Shown here: in pieces, positions 3,596 to 11,740 of the stretch
Layout of the letters: each line of letters begins with the position of its first letter
Position numbering within the stretch: position 1 is the stretch's first letter
Source of the DNA: Halobacteriovoraceae bacterium
GTDB taxonomy: Bacteria; Bdellovibrionota; Bacteriovoracia; Bacteriovoracales; Bacteriovoracaceae
Assembly (NCBI GenBank): GCA_018646195.1
Contig: JABGVH010000065.1
Coordinates: forward strand, 1-64,000
Length of the DNA stretch: 64,000 nt
Reading direction: 5' to 3'
Notes under the pieces: model-generated
The model's database searches: none
Told to the model about the DNA's origin: nothing
What the model saw: the letters and a program-made list of their open reading frames with translations, nothing else
Translations under genes and position numbers: made by a program

Positions 3596-4336
3596 TTAAA
3601 ATTGAAGAATAACTGCAGATTGATTGTCGAGATTTCCTCGAGAGTTAGATTGAGAAAAGAGTTCTCCTATTTTTTCACTCTCTGTGGCGTTCTTTTTCTC
3701 GATTACATATTTAATCTCATCTTCATCCAATCGCGCATAGGCCCCATCAGTCATCAAAAGAACCATATCCCCATCAGTAATTCGAAGCTCATGAATTTCC
3801 AAATGAAGGTCATCGAAAAGTCCAAAGCCACTCATAGGGGCAGTGAAGAAGTGACGGTTATAATCATCGACGCTTAAATCGTGAAGACTATCAGGTCTGG
3901 CAATAATCTCTAGATGACCTTTGCGATACAGGTAGCCGGCACAATTACCAGTGGCCGCCATAGTAAGAATATTTTCGGCCAGGGCCGCCCCTATCGCCGA
4001 AGAGCCTCCTCTTTCAGACATATTCTTATCGAAATTGTCTTTTTTAATGAGAGAATGCGCGTAATGCATAGAGTTAATGAGAGCATTTCCTTCCAGTAAG
4101 TATTTTGGGCTGTAAAAAAAAGGCAGGGTTGAGTCAGGATCCCCTCCAATTTTTGTATAGAATTTTTTGATAGTCTCCTTAACTTTGGCGACTGTTTTGT
4201 CTCCAATATTAGAGCCACCAAAACCATCGAATATTAAATAAAGCTGGGAGCGTAAATCAACTTCAATCCCATCTTCATTAATTTGAAGATAAGGTCCCTG
4301 ATTTGTCATCGCTGCATAACTTTTTAATTTCGCCAT
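3596..4336 (-). CDS. PP2C-family serine/threonine phosphatase
   Basis: A 246-residue protein with the ordered PP2C (PPM) motifs: NED at 20-22, the metal-binding DGFGG at 37-41, a GSSAIGAAL segment in the middle, LLMTDGAY near residue 192 with a metal-binding Asp, and LDNQSAVIL at the C-terminus. Such enzymes remove phosphate from Ser/Thr on proteins and are Mn/Mg dependent. No transmembrane segment is seen, so it should be cytosolic. It ends a run of three FHA-domain genes, starting 9 bases after the last. Because FHA domains bind phosphothreonine, the natural inference is that it resets phosphorylation read by those FHA proteins. No kinase gene lies in the window. Confidence 0.88.
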   Translation of the reverse strand: MAKLKSYAAMTNQGPYLQINEDGIEVDLRSQLYLIFDGFGGSNIGDKTVAKVKETIKKFYTKIGGDPDSTLPFFYSPKYLLEGNALINSMHYAHSLIKKDNFDKNMSERGGSSAIGAALAENILTMAATGNCAGYLYRKGHLEIIARPDSLHDLSVDDYNRHFFTAPMSGFGLFDDLHLEIHELRITDGDMVLLMTDGAYARLDEDEIKYVIEKKNATESEKIGELFSQSNSRGNLDNQSAVILQF

Positions 4337-4345
4337 AATTACACC

Positions 4346-6736
4346 CTAGTCGATATAGTCTTTGAGTTTCTCAGTTGCCTTCTTATAATAATCACTGTCA
4401 GAGGGTGAGATTTGCTGAACCTCTTGGAATTTTTCTTTTGCATCTTCGAATAAGCTTAATGATTCTGAAATAATTGCTTCACGATAAACTTTTCTTGAAC
4501 GGTGAAATAATTTTTCGCGAATGGCAGACATTTCGTTTAAGGCCTCGATATTGGAAGGATCGAAATCTAAGATCTGTTTGTAATTTTCGTAAGAGCCTTT
4601 CAAGTCTTGGCCCTCACTTAAGGAGCGCGCCTTGCCCAGTAATGGAGCGACAATATTATTTAGATTGTCTTTCGATTCCTTTAACATGGTAGAGGCTTCT
4701 TTAATTAGGTCTTCATCCATATCTGTTAGCTTGAGAAAATCTTCTAATTTTAAGACTGCTCGGTACCATTCTTTTTGTAGGTAAAAACTTTTTCCTGGCT
4801 GAAGTGCCGCCACTTTACGTTTCCGTTCCGCCTTTTTTGCGGCTTCTTCCACTCTCTTGCGCTCTTCTTCTTTTTCCCATTCCTCTAATTCAAGCTTAAG
4901 AGGTTGCAATTCAAAGTTCTCTGGATCTAGTTCTGAAATTTTTTGAAATAAAGATTTGGCGAGGGCGACCTGCCGATTCTTAACCGCTTCTTTAGTTTTA
5001 ATCAGCAATTCTTTTACCTTTTTCTTTTTTTCTGCCTCTCGCTGCTTTCTTATCCGCTCTCGCTCAATTCTTTCAAGTTCATCTAATCCTTGTTTGGCAA
5101 GTGAGTAGATTTGTTTCGAGTTTTTATAAACTGAAATTACAGCATGCAGGCGATCAAGTTCTAATATGGTCTCTCGGTAATTTCCACTCTTCATCAATTC
5201 TTTGGCCAATTCATACTGACCGGCGACAAACTCCAATTGCTCTGGAGTTAATTTTTTGAGTGCCTTATTTTTTGGTTTGGCTTTTTTTGCCTTACCATCA
5301 TCGAGAATATACTTACCGTTCTTGTCTTTCTTCCCTTTCTTAATTGGTTTCTTGGCCGGCTCTTCGCCTGAGAAAAGTAAGATCATTGCCAGAATAACGC
5401 CACCATAAATAAGCTTTTTCTTCTCTTTTGGATCAGACCACATTAATTTAATTTTTTTAACTAATGATTTTTCGGCCTTAATTTGTTCTTGAATACTTTG
5501 AGCGGCTTCACCAAAGGCCAGCCCGCCTTCTTCGCCTTCCTCACCTTCTTCATCTTCAAAACTAGCATCTACTTCTAATATTTCTTCAACTTCAATTACT
5601 TGGTTTTCTTCAACAGGCATTAAACGATCAGCTTCATCTTCGATTAAAGACGAGATAATTTTGACCGTAAAAGTGGTGGTTCCGATTAAAATTTCATCAT
5701 TATTAGTCAAGGGAGAGGCATTGATCCGTTCCCCATTTAGAATAGTTCCGTTTTGCGAACGCTGATCTTCTATCGCAAGAATAATATTAGAGCGCTTTAT
5801 AACCGCATGAACGGAAGAAACTTCAGGATCTTTTAAAACAATTTGGCACTTGCTAGCATCCCGGCCAATGAAAGTTTCATTATCGTCGATTGTGAATTTG
5901 TCATAGGGGGCGAACTCACCGAAAACCTCTAGCTCAAATTTTGCAAAGGCAGTGAAAACTTGGGTCTTCGAACCGACATCATCATCGTCACCTTCATCAC
6001 TGGCCTCCATATCAAAGCCGCCCTCATCTCCAAAACCATCGTCACTGTCTTCGTCGCTCTCCTCAGAACTATCATCATCTCCAAAAAGCTCTCCATCATC
6101 GGATGACTCTTCGCCATCAGCGTCATCAGAGGTTTCAAACTCGTCACCAAAGTCTGCCTCGGCCTCATCAGAACTTTCTTCATCAGAATCTTCAGATTCG
6201 TCGAGGTCCCCGCCAAATTCGTCATCCCCATCCAGCTCTCCACCATCAAGTTCTTCACCGTCGATCCCGTCATCATCTAGCTCTTCAGAATCGAGTGGTT
6301 CTTCTAGATCGCCATCGAGTTCTTCAACTAAGGGATCGTCAGCTTCTTCTAATTCACCGCCAGCTTCCTCTTCTAGGGAATCCTCCGTGACATCAGTAGC
6401 AACTTCAGCCGCAACAGGGGCGACTACTGGTACAAATACATTGAGAAGGTAGGGACCGATAGAAATCATATCACCTGTATTTAAAACTTTATCTTCTAGT
6501 AAAGAACCGTTGATAATTAATTGGCCAAACTCCGCCGCTTTAACAATTTTCCATTCGCTACCATCAAATACAACTTCAGCATGTTCTCGTGAGACCATTT
6601 TATCTTCGAGAACAATATGGCACTCTTCAGACCTTCCAATTAGGAAAGTTAGCTGAGAATTATCGTTCCCTTCGATTTCTAGCCCAAGATCTATTTCTTG
6701 AACTGGAAGATTGTCTTTAAAAACACTTAACTTCAC
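4346..6736 (-). CDS. Membrane protein with two FHA domains, acidic linker and TPR-like tail
   Basis: A 796-residue protein. FHA domain 1 covers about residues 5-105 (LIGRSEECHI, then VSREHA). Residues 115-260 are an extremely acidic Asp/Glu/Ser/Gly stretch. FHA domain 2 covers about 265-360 (FIGRDASKCQI, SSVHA, SQNGTILNG). One hydrophobic segment at about 442-457 is followed by a Lys-rich stretch. The C-terminal half is charged and helical with TPR-like repeats (for example GSYENYKQILDFDPSNIEALNEM). The start is GTG at 6736, overlapping the previous gene by 20 bases. No ATG gives an intact first FHA. By design it could bind phosphothreonine partners on one side of the inner membrane and scaffold proteins through its repeats. 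Function unknown. Confidence 0.82.
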   Translation of the reverse strand: MKLSVFKDNLPVQEIDLGLEIEGNDNSQLTFLIGRSEECHIVLEDKMVSREHAEVVFDGSEWKIVKAAEFGQLIINGSLLEDKVLNTGDMISIGPYLLNVFVPVVAPVAAEVATDVTEDSLEEEAGGELEEADDPLVEELDGDLEEPLDSEELDDDGIDGEELDGGELDGDDEFGGDLDESEDSDEESSDEAEADFGDEFETSDDADGEESSDDGELFGDDDSSEESDEDSDDGFGDEGGFDMEASDEGDDDDVGSKTQVFTAFAKFELEVFGEFAPYDKFTIDDNETFIGRDASKCQIVLKDPEVSSVHAVIKRSNIILAIEDQRSQNGTILNGERINASPLTNNDEILIGTTTFTVKIISSLIEDEADRLMPVEENQVIEVEEILEVDASFEDEEGEEGEEGGLAFGEAAQSIQEQIKAEKSLVKKIKLMWSDPKEKKKLIYGGVILAMILLFSGEEPAKKPIKKGKKDKNGKYILDDGKAKKAKPKNKALKKLTPEQLEFVAGQYELAKELMKSGNYRETILELDRLHAVISVYKNSKQIYSLAKQGLDELERIERERIRKQREAEKKKKVKELLIKTKEAVKNRQVALAKSLFQKISELDPENFELQPLKLELEEWEKEEERKRVEEAAKKAERKRKVAALQPGKSFYLQKEWYRAVLKLEDFLKLTDMDEDLIKEASTMLKESKDNLNNIVAPLLGKARSLSEGQDLKGSYENYKQILDFDPSNIEALNEMSAIREKLFHRSRKVYREAIISESLSLFEDAKEKFQEVQQISPSDSDYYKKATEKLKDYID

Positions 6737-7739
6737 CTTTATCTAATCCCATGTCTGCCTCTATAATACCTAGGTTTTTTTCGGCAGCTTTATAACGTTC
6801 GTCATCTGAATAATCTTGTAATAATTTTATAATATTGCAGTAAGAAATGATCGCCGAAGAAAATTTTAACGACTCCACATCCCTTTTTGCCTTTGTAAAG
6901 TTGGTATCGATCTCATCATTGAGTCGCTGTTTCGTTTTTCCTAAGTAGAAACTTGCTCGTCCATTATTTGGACTTAAAATCAATGCCAGTTCAAATTCTT
7001 CAATCGCCCTGAAAAAATTTCTCTCTCTAAATTCTCTCTGACCCCTATGAATAATCGCCTCTAATTTTTCTCGGACCTCTTTTTCTTCGGCTTTAATTTT
7101 CTTATCTCCCAATCCCTTAAATTCCCCTGAATCGTCACTTATTCCTGGTGCTTTCCCTCGTTTCGATTTCTTCTTCTTTGGTCCACTATCATCCCCCATC
7201 ATCATCATCGCGAGGACAATTACTACCACTATATAAATTAATTTCTTATTGTCTTTTTTTCCTTTCTTTTTACCTTTCTTACCCTTTTTTGAGTCGTCTT
7301 TTTGCTCTTCTTCTTCCTCATCTTCATCGTCTTCATACTCTTCAAGATCATCGTCATCATCAGTTGCAACAACGGCAGTATCTTGGATACGCAACATGCT
7401 GTACTTAAAGACTGTCTGTCCAATGATAAATTTATCCCCATCGACCAATTTATGCTGAGTAACTTTTAAGTCATTGACCACTACTCCGTTTTGAGATCCT
7501 AGATCTGTAACAAAAAAGTCGTGCCCAATTCTTTTAATCTCGGCGTGCTCTCTCGAGCTTTTAGTATCCAATACTTGAATGTCAGCAGTTTCTCCCCTTC
7601 CAAGAACAATACGTTTACCTAAAATATAATAACAAAGTCCTTTAGATTTCCCTGTTAGGGTCAACAATCTATGATAGCCCCCTGGAGCCTCAGGGGGCGT
7701 AAAGTTCTTAGAAATTTTTATATTCTTATCAGCTGCCAT
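6717..7739 (-). CDS. FHA-domain membrane protein with TPR-like C-terminus
   Basis: A 340-residue protein. Its FHA domain lies at about residues 20-120, with LGRGETADIQV, SSREHAEI and LGSQNGVVVND carrying the phosphothreonine-binding Arg, Ser and Asn. An acidic stretch then a Lys-rich stretch lead to one transmembrane segment (about 166-183, KLIYIVVVIVLAMMMM). The C-terminal part has a TPR-like helix pair (FRAIEEFELALILSPNNGRASFYLGK). The layout is the same as the 796-residue neighbour but with one FHA domain, so the two look like paralogues. It lies between two other FHA genes, 5 bases after one and overlapping the next. Confidence 0.82.
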   Translation of the reverse strand: MAADKNIKISKNFTPPEAPGGYHRLLTLTGKSKGLCYYILGKRIVLGRGETADIQVLDTKSSREHAEIKRIGHDFFVTDLGSQNGVVVNDLKVTQHKLVDGDKFIIGQTVFKYSMLRIQDTAVVATDDDDDLEEYEDDEDEEEEEQKDDSKKGKKGKKKGKKDNKKLIYIVVVIVLAMMMMGDDSGPKKKKSKRGKAPGISDDSGEFKGLGDKKIKAEEKEVREKLEAIIHRGQREFRERNFFRAIEEFELALILSPNNGRASFYLGKTKQRLNDEIDTNFTKAKRDVESLKFSSAIISYCNIIKLLQDYSDDERYKAAEKNLGIIEADMGLDKGEVKCF

Positions 7740-7744
7740 TAAAT

Positions 7745-9310
7745 TTACTCATCCTTTATGAACGTAATGTAAAATGACTTTGCAAAATTATCTTTACCCA
7801 TTAAAGAAGTGACATAAACACGGTGGGGAAAGCCACCTAATTCATATTCTCCATCCTGGCTGGTTCCATTAGCATTGGCGGAATTGTCACAGAGTTCTAT
7901 AACAGTGGCGGCGAAGCCTTGCTCTCTTGAGACATCTAATAAATTCTCGCCTTCTGAAGATGATTCTCTAATTCCAGTTAAGTCTTCCGCCTCGAGATTA
8001 ATCGCGGCTACCGCTTTTTCAGAATTCAATACCATTCCAGGAACTCCCGCTCCTCTTAAAAATTCTTTTAAGGTATCTACATAGGGAGTGTCTTCTTCTA
8101 ATTGGTCGAATTCAGCATCCCCTTCCTCGCTGCCGAGTTCCCGTATTCTAGAGAGCATTGAGTTCACCGCATTTTTCAGAATCGCCAGCTCATTAAAGAG
8201 ATAACGGCTATCAACGTTTTTACGCTTCCCCCTCAAGGCCTCTTCAATTTGATACTTCATTTCCTCTATAGGTCTAAGAGTTAGGTAATAAATAATCCCA
8301 AAAAAGATAATCGCCGCAATCGCTGCGGTGACTAATGCTTCCATATAAAGTTTAGTACTTTTGGCGGCTTCAACAATCAAGGTCTTGGGCTTAAAGCGAA
8401 TGGCAATCACTCCCACGGCCTCCATTTCGGCCCTTTTCGGGTTGAAGGCCATGATCTTTTTACCAATCCCAATTTCTCCACCTGGTAGTGGTTTTGCAAA
8501 AGTATCGTTACCTTTTCTCTGCTTCGAGGCATATTCTTTAGCCTCTACAGAGAAAGGATCTGAAATATACTCATTCATTCTTTCAACCGGTCTTACAATT
8601 CTTCCTTCAAAATCAAATAGATCAAAATAAACCACTCCTTCTTCTGTTTTTAGGAATTTGGCATTCACTTGATCTAATAGTTTTTGTTCAAGCGCTCGGG
8701 AATTCATCCGAGAAATTTCATCTGCAAAGTGAGCTCCCCTTTTGGCAATTTCCCCCATCAGCATATCTTTACTATTTTGTAGAACTGGGAAGATTGTAAG
8801 CGTGATAATAACCACTAAGAAGATAGTCAGGATGATTCCAAAAAGAATTCTCCACTCATACTCCTCATTAATGCCATGAATGGCATTCATAAACTTATAC
8901 TTAAAGAGGTGAAGTAACTTTCCCGGTATTGAAGCTGGCGCTTCACCTCCCGTTAGATAAACTTCTTCGTCCTCTTCCTCTTCTTCATCAGAGACTCTTT
9001 TCTTTACAATAATTTTTTTCTCTGCCACATAGACAACTTGTAAAATAGTGTCAGGCAAAGCAATTTTGTCACCATTTTTAACGGTTCCTCTTTTAACAAT
9101 TTTGCCATTTAAAAAAGTTCCGTTGGCGCTCTCTAAGTCTTTTAGGTAAGCGACATCATCGGTAACCGTTATTGAAACGTGTTTTTTGGAAATCCCTTGA
9201 ACAGGAGTGTGGAGATCGCAACCAGAATCCCGGCCGAGAATATTCTCACCATTTTTTAAGGTAAATTCAGTTCCTCGAATTTTCCCTGCAATACATACTA
9301 ACTTATACAT
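7745..9310 (-). CDS. FHA-domain transmembrane sensor (FHA-TM-sensor-TM-HAMP-PAS-like)
   Basis: A 521-residue protein with an unusual order of parts. The FHA domain is at about 20-96 (ILGRDSGCDL, ISKKHV, ESANGTFLNG). An acidic linker precedes transmembrane segment 1 (about 153-177). An extracytoplasmic region of about 145 residues follows. Transmembrane segment 2 (about 323-343) is followed by a HAMP-like stretch starting LRPIEEMKYQIEEAL. The end, from about residue 415, looks PAS-like. There is no kinase, cyclase or methyl-accepting region, so the FHA domain itself may be the output. It overlaps the DUF192 gene by 13 bases and leads the two other FHA genes. The sensor fold is assigned by topology only. 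Confidence 0.78.
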   Translation of the reverse strand: MYKLVCIAGKIRGTEFTLKNGENILGRDSGCDLHTPVQGISKKHVSITVTDDVAYLKDLESANGTFLNGKIVKRGTVKNGDKIALPDTILQVVYVAEKKIIVKKRVSDEEEEEDEEVYLTGGEAPASIPGKLLHLFKYKFMNAIHGINEEYEWRILFGIILTIFLVVIITLTIFPVLQNSKDMLMGEIAKRGAHFADEISRMNSRALEQKLLDQVNAKFLKTEEGVVYFDLFDFEGRIVRPVERMNEYISDPFSVEAKEYASKQRKGNDTFAKPLPGGEIGIGKKIMAFNPKRAEMEAVGVIAIRFKPKTLIVEAAKSTKLYMEALVTAAIAAIIFFGIIYYLTLRPIEEMKYQIEEALRGKRKNVDSRYLFNELAILKNAVNSMLSRIRELGSEEGDAEFDQLEEDTPYVDTLKEFLRGAGVPGMVLNSEKAVAAINLEAEDLTGIRESSSEGENLLDVSREQGFAATVIELCDNSANANGTSQDGEYELGGFPHRVYVTSLMGKDNFAKSFYITFIKDE

Positions 9311-9648
9311 ACTACCTCTAGGGTTTCACCCTTTTGAATTCTTGCCCCAATAGTATTCCCCTTTAGCTCCAAAACTTTGGATGCAGAGAAATAAAGCGGC
9401 GTCAGTCTCCAGGGCTTCAAATTTTCAATAACTTTGACAACTTTATTAGACTTGTCTAAAAAAACTACGTCGATATTGTATTTCATAAAAAAGGTATGGA
9501 TCTGATTGCAAGGCTTAATTAGCAATCCATCATATCCTTTCATTTCATTTTCAAACATTAAACCTTTCATTCTTGAAAACATCGTTGAGGCAATTTCAAC
9601 ATCTACCCCAAGTACTTCTTTTTTTTCTGAAAGAACTTTGACTCTCAT
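9298..9648 (-). CDS. DUF192 family protein
   Basis: A 116-residue protein matching the DUF192 family: the early block FSRMKGLMF, then IHTFFMKYNIDVVFLDKSNKVV, and later LELKGNTI. DUF192 proteins are small beta-rich proteins, often secreted, with no settled biochemical role. This copy has no signal peptide and no lipobox, so it may be cytosolic. It sits directly after tadC (adjacent with no gap) and overlaps the FHA sensor gene by 13 bases, which ties it to the Tad/FHA cluster. Confidence 0.85.
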   Translation of the reverse strand: MRVKVLSEKKEVLGVDVEIASTMFSRMKGLMFENEMKGYDGLLIKPCNQIHTFFMKYNIDVVFLDKSNKVVKVIENLKPWRLTPLYFSASKVLELKGNTIGARIQKGETLEVVCIS

Positions 9649-10551
9649 CTATTTTCCTCCCGCCTTGGCCTGCATCGCCTGCAAGGCAATTGGAGCAATC
9701 ACAATTATAAAAACTGCCGGGACAATTAGAAAAAGCATTGGAAAGAGAATTTTAGTCGCTGCAGTGGCACCGGCCTTCTCAACTTCCGAAGATTTTTTCT
9801 GCCTAATTTCACCTGATAATGCTTTTAAAATGGGCCCAATAGAAGCCCCCACCGAGTCAGCGGCGATAAGAGTGGCGCAAAAAGAGGAAACTTGAATCAG
9901 GTCAATTCTCCAGGCCATATTTCGCAAGCTTTCTGCCCGGCTTGCACCAACTTTAATTTCCTTTAAAAGAATTTCGAATTCTTCAGTAAGAGCAGATGAC
10001 TTTGCTTTTTCCACAACCTTTGTCATGGCCGCAATAAAATCCAGACCAGCTTCAACTGATAGCGCCAGCATATCGACACAGAATGGCATCGACATTACGA
10101 CTTCTTTTTGGCGCCCTTGAATTTTCCCGCTGATCCAAATATCTGGATAGAAAAAACCAACCACTGCAACTACTGGTATAGCGGTTAGAGGCCAGGTCTC
10201 TTCTAGAAATTGCCTGACTCCGAAAAATAAAATGGGGAATCCTACGATAAGAAAAAGCTTGAATGAAAAGAAGTCTTCAGGACTTAAGTAATCTGTTAAA
10301 CCAGCAGAGGCCAGTTTCCTTTTATATTTCTCTTTTATTTTCTTCTTGTTCTTCATCTGAGAAACGATGGGCGTAACGTAGCGCTTAAAAAAAGGTCTAG
10401 AATACCGCAGGACAATCCCGTGGTCCTTCTCTTCCTTCCCCCCTTCGTCTAATTTCTCTTGGGCCTTGAAAGCTTCTTCGTCTTGAAACATCATGTTAGT
10501 AATGATGAAGACTGCTATTCCAATTAAAATGACGGCCGCCCACATTAACAC
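9649..10551 (-). CDS. tadC: TadC-like type II secretion F-domain platform protein
   Basis: A 300-residue inner-membrane protein of the Tad/Flp pilus assembly family. It has an N-terminal membrane helix, a charged cytosolic stretch, two central helices (FKLFLIVGFPILFFGV and the following WPLTAIPVVAVVGFF), a type II secretion F domain at about 135-270 (CVDMLALSVEAGLDF, LIAADSVGASIGPIL), and a C-terminal helix. TadC and TadB normally form the platform on which the ATPase TadA extends the pilus. The start is GTG at 10551, with AGGAG seven bases upstream. An ATG two codons later is the alternative. No tadA, tadB, cpaC or pilin gene is in the window, so this is a detached tadC leading the FHA/PP2C cluster. 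Confidence 0.87.
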   Translation of the reverse strand: MLMWAAVILIGIAVFIITNMMFQDEEAFKAQEKLDEGGKEEKDHGIVLRYSRPFFKRYVTPIVSQMKNKKKIKEKYKRKLASAGLTDYLSPEDFFSFKLFLIVGFPILFFGVRQFLEETWPLTAIPVVAVVGFFYPDIWISGKIQGRQKEVVMSMPFCVDMLALSVEAGLDFIAAMTKVVEKAKSSALTEEFEILLKEIKVGASRAESLRNMAWRIDLIQVSSFCATLIAADSVGASIGPILKALSGEIRQKKSSEVEKAGATAATKILFPMLFLIVPAVFIIVIAPIALQAMQAKAGGK

Positions 10552-10651: not shown

Positions 10652-11740
10652 TTATTCCCCAGTTTTTGAGTCAGCTATTGATTTTGAAATTTCTTCTAGA
10701 AATATTTGAGAGCCCCTGCTATTCAGCTTCTTGGTGACTTCGGGGACAAAAATAGGTTGGTATTCGGCAAAATTGAGTTTTTTAGTTTCAAGAATTCGAG
10801 AAGAGCGATCATTTACAATTTCGCGGGTTAATTCCCCGCTATCCACCGCTTGTTCTAAGCCTAAGTAGGCTTCCCTGGCCAAATTCATGTCACGGTATTC
10901 AACGATATCGGCGCCTGCTTTAATGGCCTTAACCGCAGCGCCGCCTACTGAATAGTTTTTTGTGATCGCCTCCATTTGCATGTCATCTGTAATTATAATT
11001 TTCTTGTAGCGCAATTCATTTCGTAAATACTGATAAGCTTCCGGCGCAAGTGAAGCGGGAAGTTTATTGTCAAAAGCATCCACCCGTATATGCGCCATCA
11101 TAACAAATTCGACTCTCGACTTAACGGCTTTAACAAAGGGAATTAGCTCTAGCCCCTCTAGTTCTTCAAGTGATTTTTCTAAATAAGGTAATTCGAAATG
11201 ACTGTCTTCCGCAGTGGCACCATGACCTGGAAAATGCTTAGCACAGGCCAGAATAGAGTTTGTTTGCAGCCCTCTTATGATTGACGAAATATATTTTGAA
11301 ACAGTTTCAGCATCCCGACCGAAGGCGCGGTCACCGATTACTTGGTTTTCTTCGTGAGTAAGTACATCACAGCAAGGTGCAAAGTTTACATTCACTCCCA
11401 ACGCCAATAGTTCCTCTGCCATAATTTTGGCAACAGTAAAGCAAACCTTAGGACTATTTGTTTTAGCGAGTTCTAGCATCGCTGGAAACTGAGTTAAGTG
11501 TTCTTTAAAACGACGGACTCTTCCGCCTTCCTGGTCAACCGCAATAAAGAGAGGGGATTCATCCCTAAGCGCCTGAATTGAATTAACAAGCTCGGCCAAC
11601 TGGGTGGGGCTTTCATAATTATTAGCAAAAAGAAGAACTCCACCAATTTTAGAATTCGAAATAAATTCACTCTCTATATCAGTTAGAACTTTGCCACTAA
11701 TACCAGTCATTATTAATTGACCAAGATTACTCAATTTCAT
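10652..11740 (-). CDS. nagZ: Beta-N-acetylhexosaminidase NagZ (GH3)
   Basis: A 362-residue GH3 enzyme that removes GlcNAc from anhydro-muropeptides during peptidoglycan recycling, and in other bacteria acts in the cytosol. Diagnostic pieces are AVDQEGGRVRR (about residue 67), CAKHFPGHGATAEDSH (about 166, with the catalytic His-Asp loop of NagZ) and IITDDMQMEAI (about 250, with the nucleophile Asp). No signal peptide is seen. It is the last gene of a tight run beginning at mreB and follows the permease gene after 4 bases. This suggests that muropeptide-derived sugars and peptides are handled together. Confidence 0.92.
   Translation of the reverse strand: MKLSNLGQLIMTGISGKVLTDIESEFISNSKIGGVLLFANNYESPTQLAELVNSIQALRDESPLFIAVDQEGGRVRRFKEHLTQFPAMLELAKTNSPKVCFTVAKIMAEELLALGVNVNFAPCCDVLTHEENQVIGDRAFGRDAETVSKYISSIIRGLQTNSILACAKHFPGHGATAEDSHFELPYLEKSLEELEGLELIPFVKAVKSRVEFVMMAHIRVDAFDNKLPASLAPEAYQYLRNELRYKKIIITDDMQMEAITKNYSVGGAAVKAIKAGADIVEYRDMNLAREAYLGLEQAVDSGELTREIVNDRSSRILETKKLNFAEYQPIFVPEVTKKLNSRGSQIFLEEISKSIADSKTGE

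Follow-up and report, generated by a model that had tools for sequence, protein, structure and literature searches.

A TadC operon with FHA proteins and a PP2C-type phosphatase in a Halobacteriovoraceae bacterium corresponds to the Bd0470-Bd0475 predation operon of Bdellovibrio

In Bdellovibrio bacteriovorus, transposon mutants of the TadC gene Bd0470 are defective in attachment, and those of the FHA gene Bd0474 attach and neither kill nor round their prey (Duncan et al., PMC6561027). Both genes lie in one operon (PMC6561027), and the whole set Bd0470-Bd0475 has been called a single operon in which Bd0475 is labelled as hypothetical (PMC12034629). The same study reported a predicted contact between Bd0473 and Bd0475, with an ipTM of 0.604 that falls in the grey zone, and a two-hybrid interaction of Bd0474 with Bd0075 (PMC12034629). 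A related FHA-rich, Tad-like system that kills prey, Kil, is known from Myxococcus, and the systems of the Bdellovibrionales lie near kil in the tree (Seef et al., PMC8460266). Gating by an FHA domain and phosphothreonine is moreover established for DgcB, which licenses invasion by Bdellovibrio (PMC6733907). Our literature searches found only the work of Duncan et al. to combine four of the five subjects Tad, TadC, FHA domain, Myxococcus and PP2C, and no paper joining Tad, the FHA domain and DUF192, which in neither case proves absence.

The DNA analysed here (the window) is a stretch of 64,000 nucleotides from one contig (C60) of a Halobacteriovoraceae genome of 3.8 Mb in 254 contigs. A check of the open reading frames recovered six minus-strand genes at 3596-10551, encoding TadC, a DUF192 protein, three FHA proteins and a PP2C-type phosphatase (Table 1). 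From TadC to PP2C, successive genes are separated by 0, -13, +5, -20 and +9 bases (negative values are overlaps), so that the compact single-strand run described in the first-pass annotation is confirmed, as are, by Pfam domains and transmembrane (TM) helices, its TadC, its DUF192 protein, its three FHA proteins and the two membrane helices of the FHA sensor. Its account of the remaining two as FHA-membrane-TPR proteins holds for the FHA domain and the membrane helix, but one of them, the 796-aa protein, carries two FHA domains (four in the operon by Pfam), and the TPR repeats can hardly be made out in the window copies and are clearer in the orthologues. The linker of this double-FHA protein (5929-6452) is extremely rich in Asp and Glu, and long spurious open reading frames arise from it in a second frame and on the opposite strand. 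Scans of the locus for promoters and terminators returned fewer matches than in shuffles.

Table 1. Genes of the TadC operon and its immediate neighbours in the window
Feature	Position	Strand	Evidence and correspondence
TadC/CpaH-type inner-membrane platform protein, 300 aa	9649..10551	-	T2SSF 1.4e-14 (Pfam); Bd0470 orthologue
DUF192 protein, 116 aa	9298..9648	-	DUF192 1.3e-19 (Pfam); Bd0471 position
FHA-sensor, 521 aa	7745..9310	-	FHA 1.7e-14 (Pfam); two TM helices; Bd0472 position
FHA-TM-TPR-like protein, 340 aa	6717..7739	-	FHA 1.9e-15, TPR_2 0.0043 (Pfam); TM 163-186; Bd0473 position
2xFHA-acidic linker-TM-TPR-like protein, 796 aa	4346..6736	-	FHA 2.3e-29, two stretches (Pfam); Bd0474 position
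PP2C-type Ser/Thr phosphatase (predicted), 246 aa	3596..4336	-	NF033484 4e-17; homologue of 'hypothetical' Bd0475
Response-regulator receiver + acidic linker + C-terminal helix	2182..3540	-	Response_reg 4.2e-12 (Pfam); 55 bases after PP2C
NagZ-like protein of glycoside hydrolase family 3, encoded upstream	10652..11740	-	GH3 5e-76 (Pfam)

The same genes in the same order are found at a locus (L208) of a genome that we take to be that of B. bacteriovorus HD100 (G095), with open reading frames that fit the lengths published for Bd0473 (386 aa), Bd0474 (674 aa) and Bd0475 (228 aa). The six genes are thus the predator version of Bd0470-Bd0475, a Kil-like/type IVb pilus operon. Since this operon is known in B. 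bacteriovorus and its predation phenotypes are published (PMC6561027, PMC12034629), the earlier suggestion of an undescribed system has to be abandoned.

This gene order is conserved across the Bdellovibrionota and is not a peculiarity of one genome. TadC is present in 57 of 59 relatives, and the DUF192-FHA-FHA-FHA order follows it in nearly every locus that is long enough, both in the window family and in other families of the phylum, the Bdellovibrionaceae (the family of genome G041) included; the DUF192 gene keeps its position in nearly every relative. The recurrence of the order in dozens of genomes, among them families with no more than 32-45% identity in TadC, argues against chance. In one family (f9), a single FHA domain instead of two was detected in the last FHA protein. 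One clear exception is a TadC gene of genome G036 (L070, on the same contig as L154), which has no adjoining DUF192 or FHA genes; this TadC is 70% identical to that of the window, and a rearrangement or an assembly error is possible. Among the best 80 matches kept as named loci, all of them Bacteriovoracia-like, 59 have the complete set, with the NagZ-like gene on one side and the response regulator on the other. The latter constitutes a seventh gene of the run in the window family, where it comes after PP2C in nearly all loci that are intact; it does so in at least 60 of these 80, and the remainder are mostly truncated by contig ends. Behind the operon of other families no such gene was detected. 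The GH3 gene directly upstream is conserved in the window family (f1) and not elsewhere, and is probably not part of the system. In three other families (L092, L093 and L094) the module lies directly upstream of the CpaB and secretin genes, with a prepilin peptidase gene also after the module in L093, which ties it physically to the Tad machine.

The first-pass annotation had noted that tadA, tadB, pilin genes and a Ser/Thr kinase were absent, which is true of the window but not of the genome, so that the run cannot be regarded as self-contained. Another contig (C122) encodes a prepilin peptidase, a small pilin-like protein (a weak match to Flp1_like, 0.0093, below the cut-off), CpaB, a secretin, a 724-aa MinD-TadA fusion and a TadB distinct from the TadC of the window, together with two additional small proteins that have no match in Pfam and are minor-pilin-like by their position and N-terminal hydrophobic stretch. 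All the parts of a Tad (type IVc) pilus, namely the TadA ATPase, TadB, TadC, CpaB, secretin, prepilin peptidase and, by its weak match, pilin, are therefore present in the genome. The 724-aa ATPase (L015:7139-9313) combines CbiA/MinD and T2SSE domains, matches the TadA family model TIGR03819 at 4.6e-89, below the cut-off of that model, and showed no FHA domain in the domain search. A gene for an RHS-repeat/DUF6531 protein (L015:10299-11924) directly follows tadB. Matches to Hanks-type kinases above the cut-off occur on two more contigs (C146 and C116). The kinase on C146 has 696 aa (L198:5005-7095), what appears to be a TM helix and, as read from its sequence, the HRD and DFG motifs. A GYF_2-domain protein (L198:2561-3526) is encoded a few genes upstream of it, and the same contig also encodes, on its minus strand, a DgcB-like FHA-GGDEF protein (L198:13234-14139). 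A GYF_2 search of the genome for a partner like Bd0075 gave short candidates. Hanks kinases were found in 57 of 59 relatives, most of which have one of about 600-700 aa. The kinase is not linked to the operon.

The sixth gene was examined as a possible PP2C phosphatase. Its Pfam match (E 0.0013) is below the cut-off, though it matches the NCBIfam model of Stp1-type PP2C (NF033484) over the full length, at a score far below the equivalog cut-off of that model, and its profile matches PP2C sequences of the PDB down to 3.7e-26. An AlphaFold2 model (mean pLDDT 92.1) gave Foldseek matches to MsPP, tPphA, PppA and PstP. A spurious call was consequently rejected, and the PP2C of the first-pass annotation stands. 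The M1/M2 metal residues are present (E21, D37, D197 and D237), and the four core residues are intact in 28 of the 30 copies of the window family, whose sixth gene, as far as sequence can tell, keeps the residues of a PP2C eraser. The window family replaces the third-metal aspartate of the GDS motif, mostly by Asn (GN(C)), as in the window protein itself, implying an unusual third-metal site, and the activity of these proteins may be reduced as a result.

The protein at the Bd0475 position gave no Pfam match, and all 28 alignable copies of the Bdellovibrionaceae keep none or only one of the four metal residues. The letters at single sites of these degenerate copies depend on an alignment of distant sequences; loss of the DGxGG and DN motifs, however, can be seen in the sequences themselves. 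A profile-profile comparison joined the sixth gene to the Bdellovibrionaceae copies (probability 98.5, E 1.8e-15), and a hidden Markov model built from window-family copies only reached several of them (best 3.7e-10), so that by these profile matches the sixth gene is homologous to Bd0475. A loss rather than a gain of the metal residues is inferred from the ancestry shared with PP2C enzymes. Bd0475 is thus predicted to be a pseudophosphatase, and conservation of the PP2C as an enzyme throughout the phylum was rejected. In other families the metal residues are mixed, and seven loci whose sequence extends past the FHA genes yielded no copy of the sixth gene; on the TadC tree, whose root is arbitrary, the intact state requires at least four changes. 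An eraser encoded in the operon is therefore not essential to the machine, and the Bdellovibrionaceae would still have one, as a canonical Stp1-like PP2C is encoded elsewhere in each of the 16 genomes checked. The affiliation of the sixth gene to the PP2C family, with metal sites kept in the lineage of the window and lost in that of Bdellovibrio, appears to be new.

Taken together, the most plausible reading, which we hold to be rather likely, is that the run represents the TadC operon of a Kil-like Tad (type IVb/c) predation pilus equipped with an FHA/PP2C phosphothreonine switch. A different view would give the FHA proteins a structural, scaffolding role in the Tad basal body, comparable to that of the FHA fold of YscD/SctD, and would see the PP2C as a passenger that is being lost. 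All FHA domains of the operon indeed also match Yop-YscD_cpl, a fold that is structural in type III secretion, YscD is listed among the Foldseek matches of the FHA-sensor, and in several lineages the PP2C has degenerated or was not detected. Moreover, the first FHA domain of the 796-aa protein keeps its Arg and Ser in most of about 80 genomes and lacks the Asn of the SxNG motif, and may be structural for this reason. However, in the FHA-sensor, in the FHA-TPR protein and in the second FHA domain of the 796-aa protein, the Arg, Ser and Asn of the phosphothreonine pocket show almost no variation across the same genomes, where identity of the whole orthologous proteins drops to about 15-25%, a pattern hard to explain without phosphopeptide binding. 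Three of the four domains hence keep the residues of a phosphothreonine reader, and the lack of Arg and Ser that would have weakened the idea of a switch was not observed. The AlphaFold2 model of the FHA-sensor shows an FHA domain, a TM helix, an extracytoplasmic sensor-like domain, a second TM helix, a HAMP-like helix and a PAS-like domain, and no histidine-kinase domain. The model has a mean pLDDT of 87.9, and its pTM of 0.49 makes the arrangement of these domains unreliable. Its nearest full-length fold is a WalK model, followed by the FHA domains of FhaA, GarA and DgcB, so that the nearest FHA folds of the PDB are phospho-readers, and a purely structural role of the FHA proteins seems unlikely.

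Even less probable, in our opinion, is that the FHA and PP2C genes make up an operon for general signalling, in gliding, the cell cycle or the output of the response regulator, and merely have a promoter in common with tadC. The flanking genes differ between families, a response regulator follows the operon in the window family, and FHA proteins are encoded at further sites of the genome, all of which would fit such a role. But TadC is the constant partner across families, other Tad genes come directly after the module in three of them, and mutants of both Bd0470 and Bd0474 fail at predation (PMC6561027). The main discordant observation for the preferred reading, a predation pilus with a phosphothreonine switch, comes from two genomes (G045 and G052, both 88% complete) in which the start of the module is present and a Hanks kinase was not detected.

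The phosphothreonine switch is proposed on the basis of gene content, the conservation of genes and residues and the parts recovered elsewhere in the genome, as observed here, and of the Bd0470 and Bd0474 phenotypes in the literature; the organism of the window is itself taken to be a predator because its relatives are. TadC would be the subunit that forms the inner-membrane platform of a machine otherwise encoded elsewhere in the genome, and the three FHA proteins would sit in the inner membrane with cytoplasmic heads that read phosphothreonine, two of them exposing extracytoplasmic TPR-like domains and the third a sensor-like module between its two membrane helices. Upon prey contact, a Hanks-type Ser/Thr kinase would phosphorylate threonines on FHA or Tad proteins, and docking of the FHA heads on these marks would switch the machine from attachment to killing and entry. 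As the first-pass annotation had envisaged, FHA proteins may bind phosphorylated Tad components and the PP2C may control piliation. In the Bacteriovoracia, the PP2C of the operon would erase the marks, whereas in the Bdellovibrionaceae, with a predicted pseudophosphatase, erasure would be left to the housekeeping Stp1-like PP2C. A tentative extension, of which we are doubtful, is that the predation pilus of the Bacteriovoracia has a dedicated eraser and the pseudophosphatase of the Bdellovibrionaceae binds the mark, as the published modelling that pairs Bd0475 with the FHA protein Bd0473 (PMC12034629) might suggest, so that the two lineages reset the attack switch differently. These genes bear on how predators turn prey contact into killing, with FHA-phosphothreonine signalling already implicated in invasion (PMC6733907). 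Bd0475, as a relative of PP2C that looks active or degenerate depending on the lineage, can be named as a candidate off-switch, for which the contrast between the lineages is a natural test case, and the near-invariance of the FHA pockets opens the way to a direct test of whether Bd0472-Bd0474 are phospho-readers.

Among known systems, the threonine-phosphorylation pathway of the Pseudomonas aeruginosa type VI system (PpkA, PppA and Fha1) would be the nearest functional parallel, as an analogy and not as a membership: an FHA reader and a PP2C eraser are encoded there with a contact-dependent weapon, and PppA (6jkv) is among the closest folds to the window PP2C, but the machine is contractile, unlike the Tad machine found here. 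The kinase of the type VI pathway is encoded in the same cluster, which is not the case at the window operon. The Kil system of Myxococcus xanthus (MXAN_3102-3108 and MXAN_4648-4661) is likewise Tad-like, divided between two loci, rich in FHA proteins and involved in predation, with one CpaF-type ATPase in the locus (PMC8460266), just as the Tad genes here are split over C60 and C122 and accompanied by FHA-rich accessory genes. As far as Kil is known by description, however, the published KilF has an N-terminal FHA domain, in place of which the ATPase found here has a MinD/ParA domain. DgcB (FHA-GGDEF) shares a phosphothreonine-gated FHA domain that controls prey invasion (PMC6733907), but it is a diguanylate cyclase, in contrast to the FHA-membrane proteins of the Tad operon. 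Finally, the Bd0470-Bd0475 operon and that of the window present the same single-strand succession of TadC, DUF192, FHA, FHA, 2xFHA and a sixth gene, as seen in L208, and differ in that the protein at the Bd0475 position lacks the PP2C metal residues and has no Pfam match, whereas the window copy keeps these residues.
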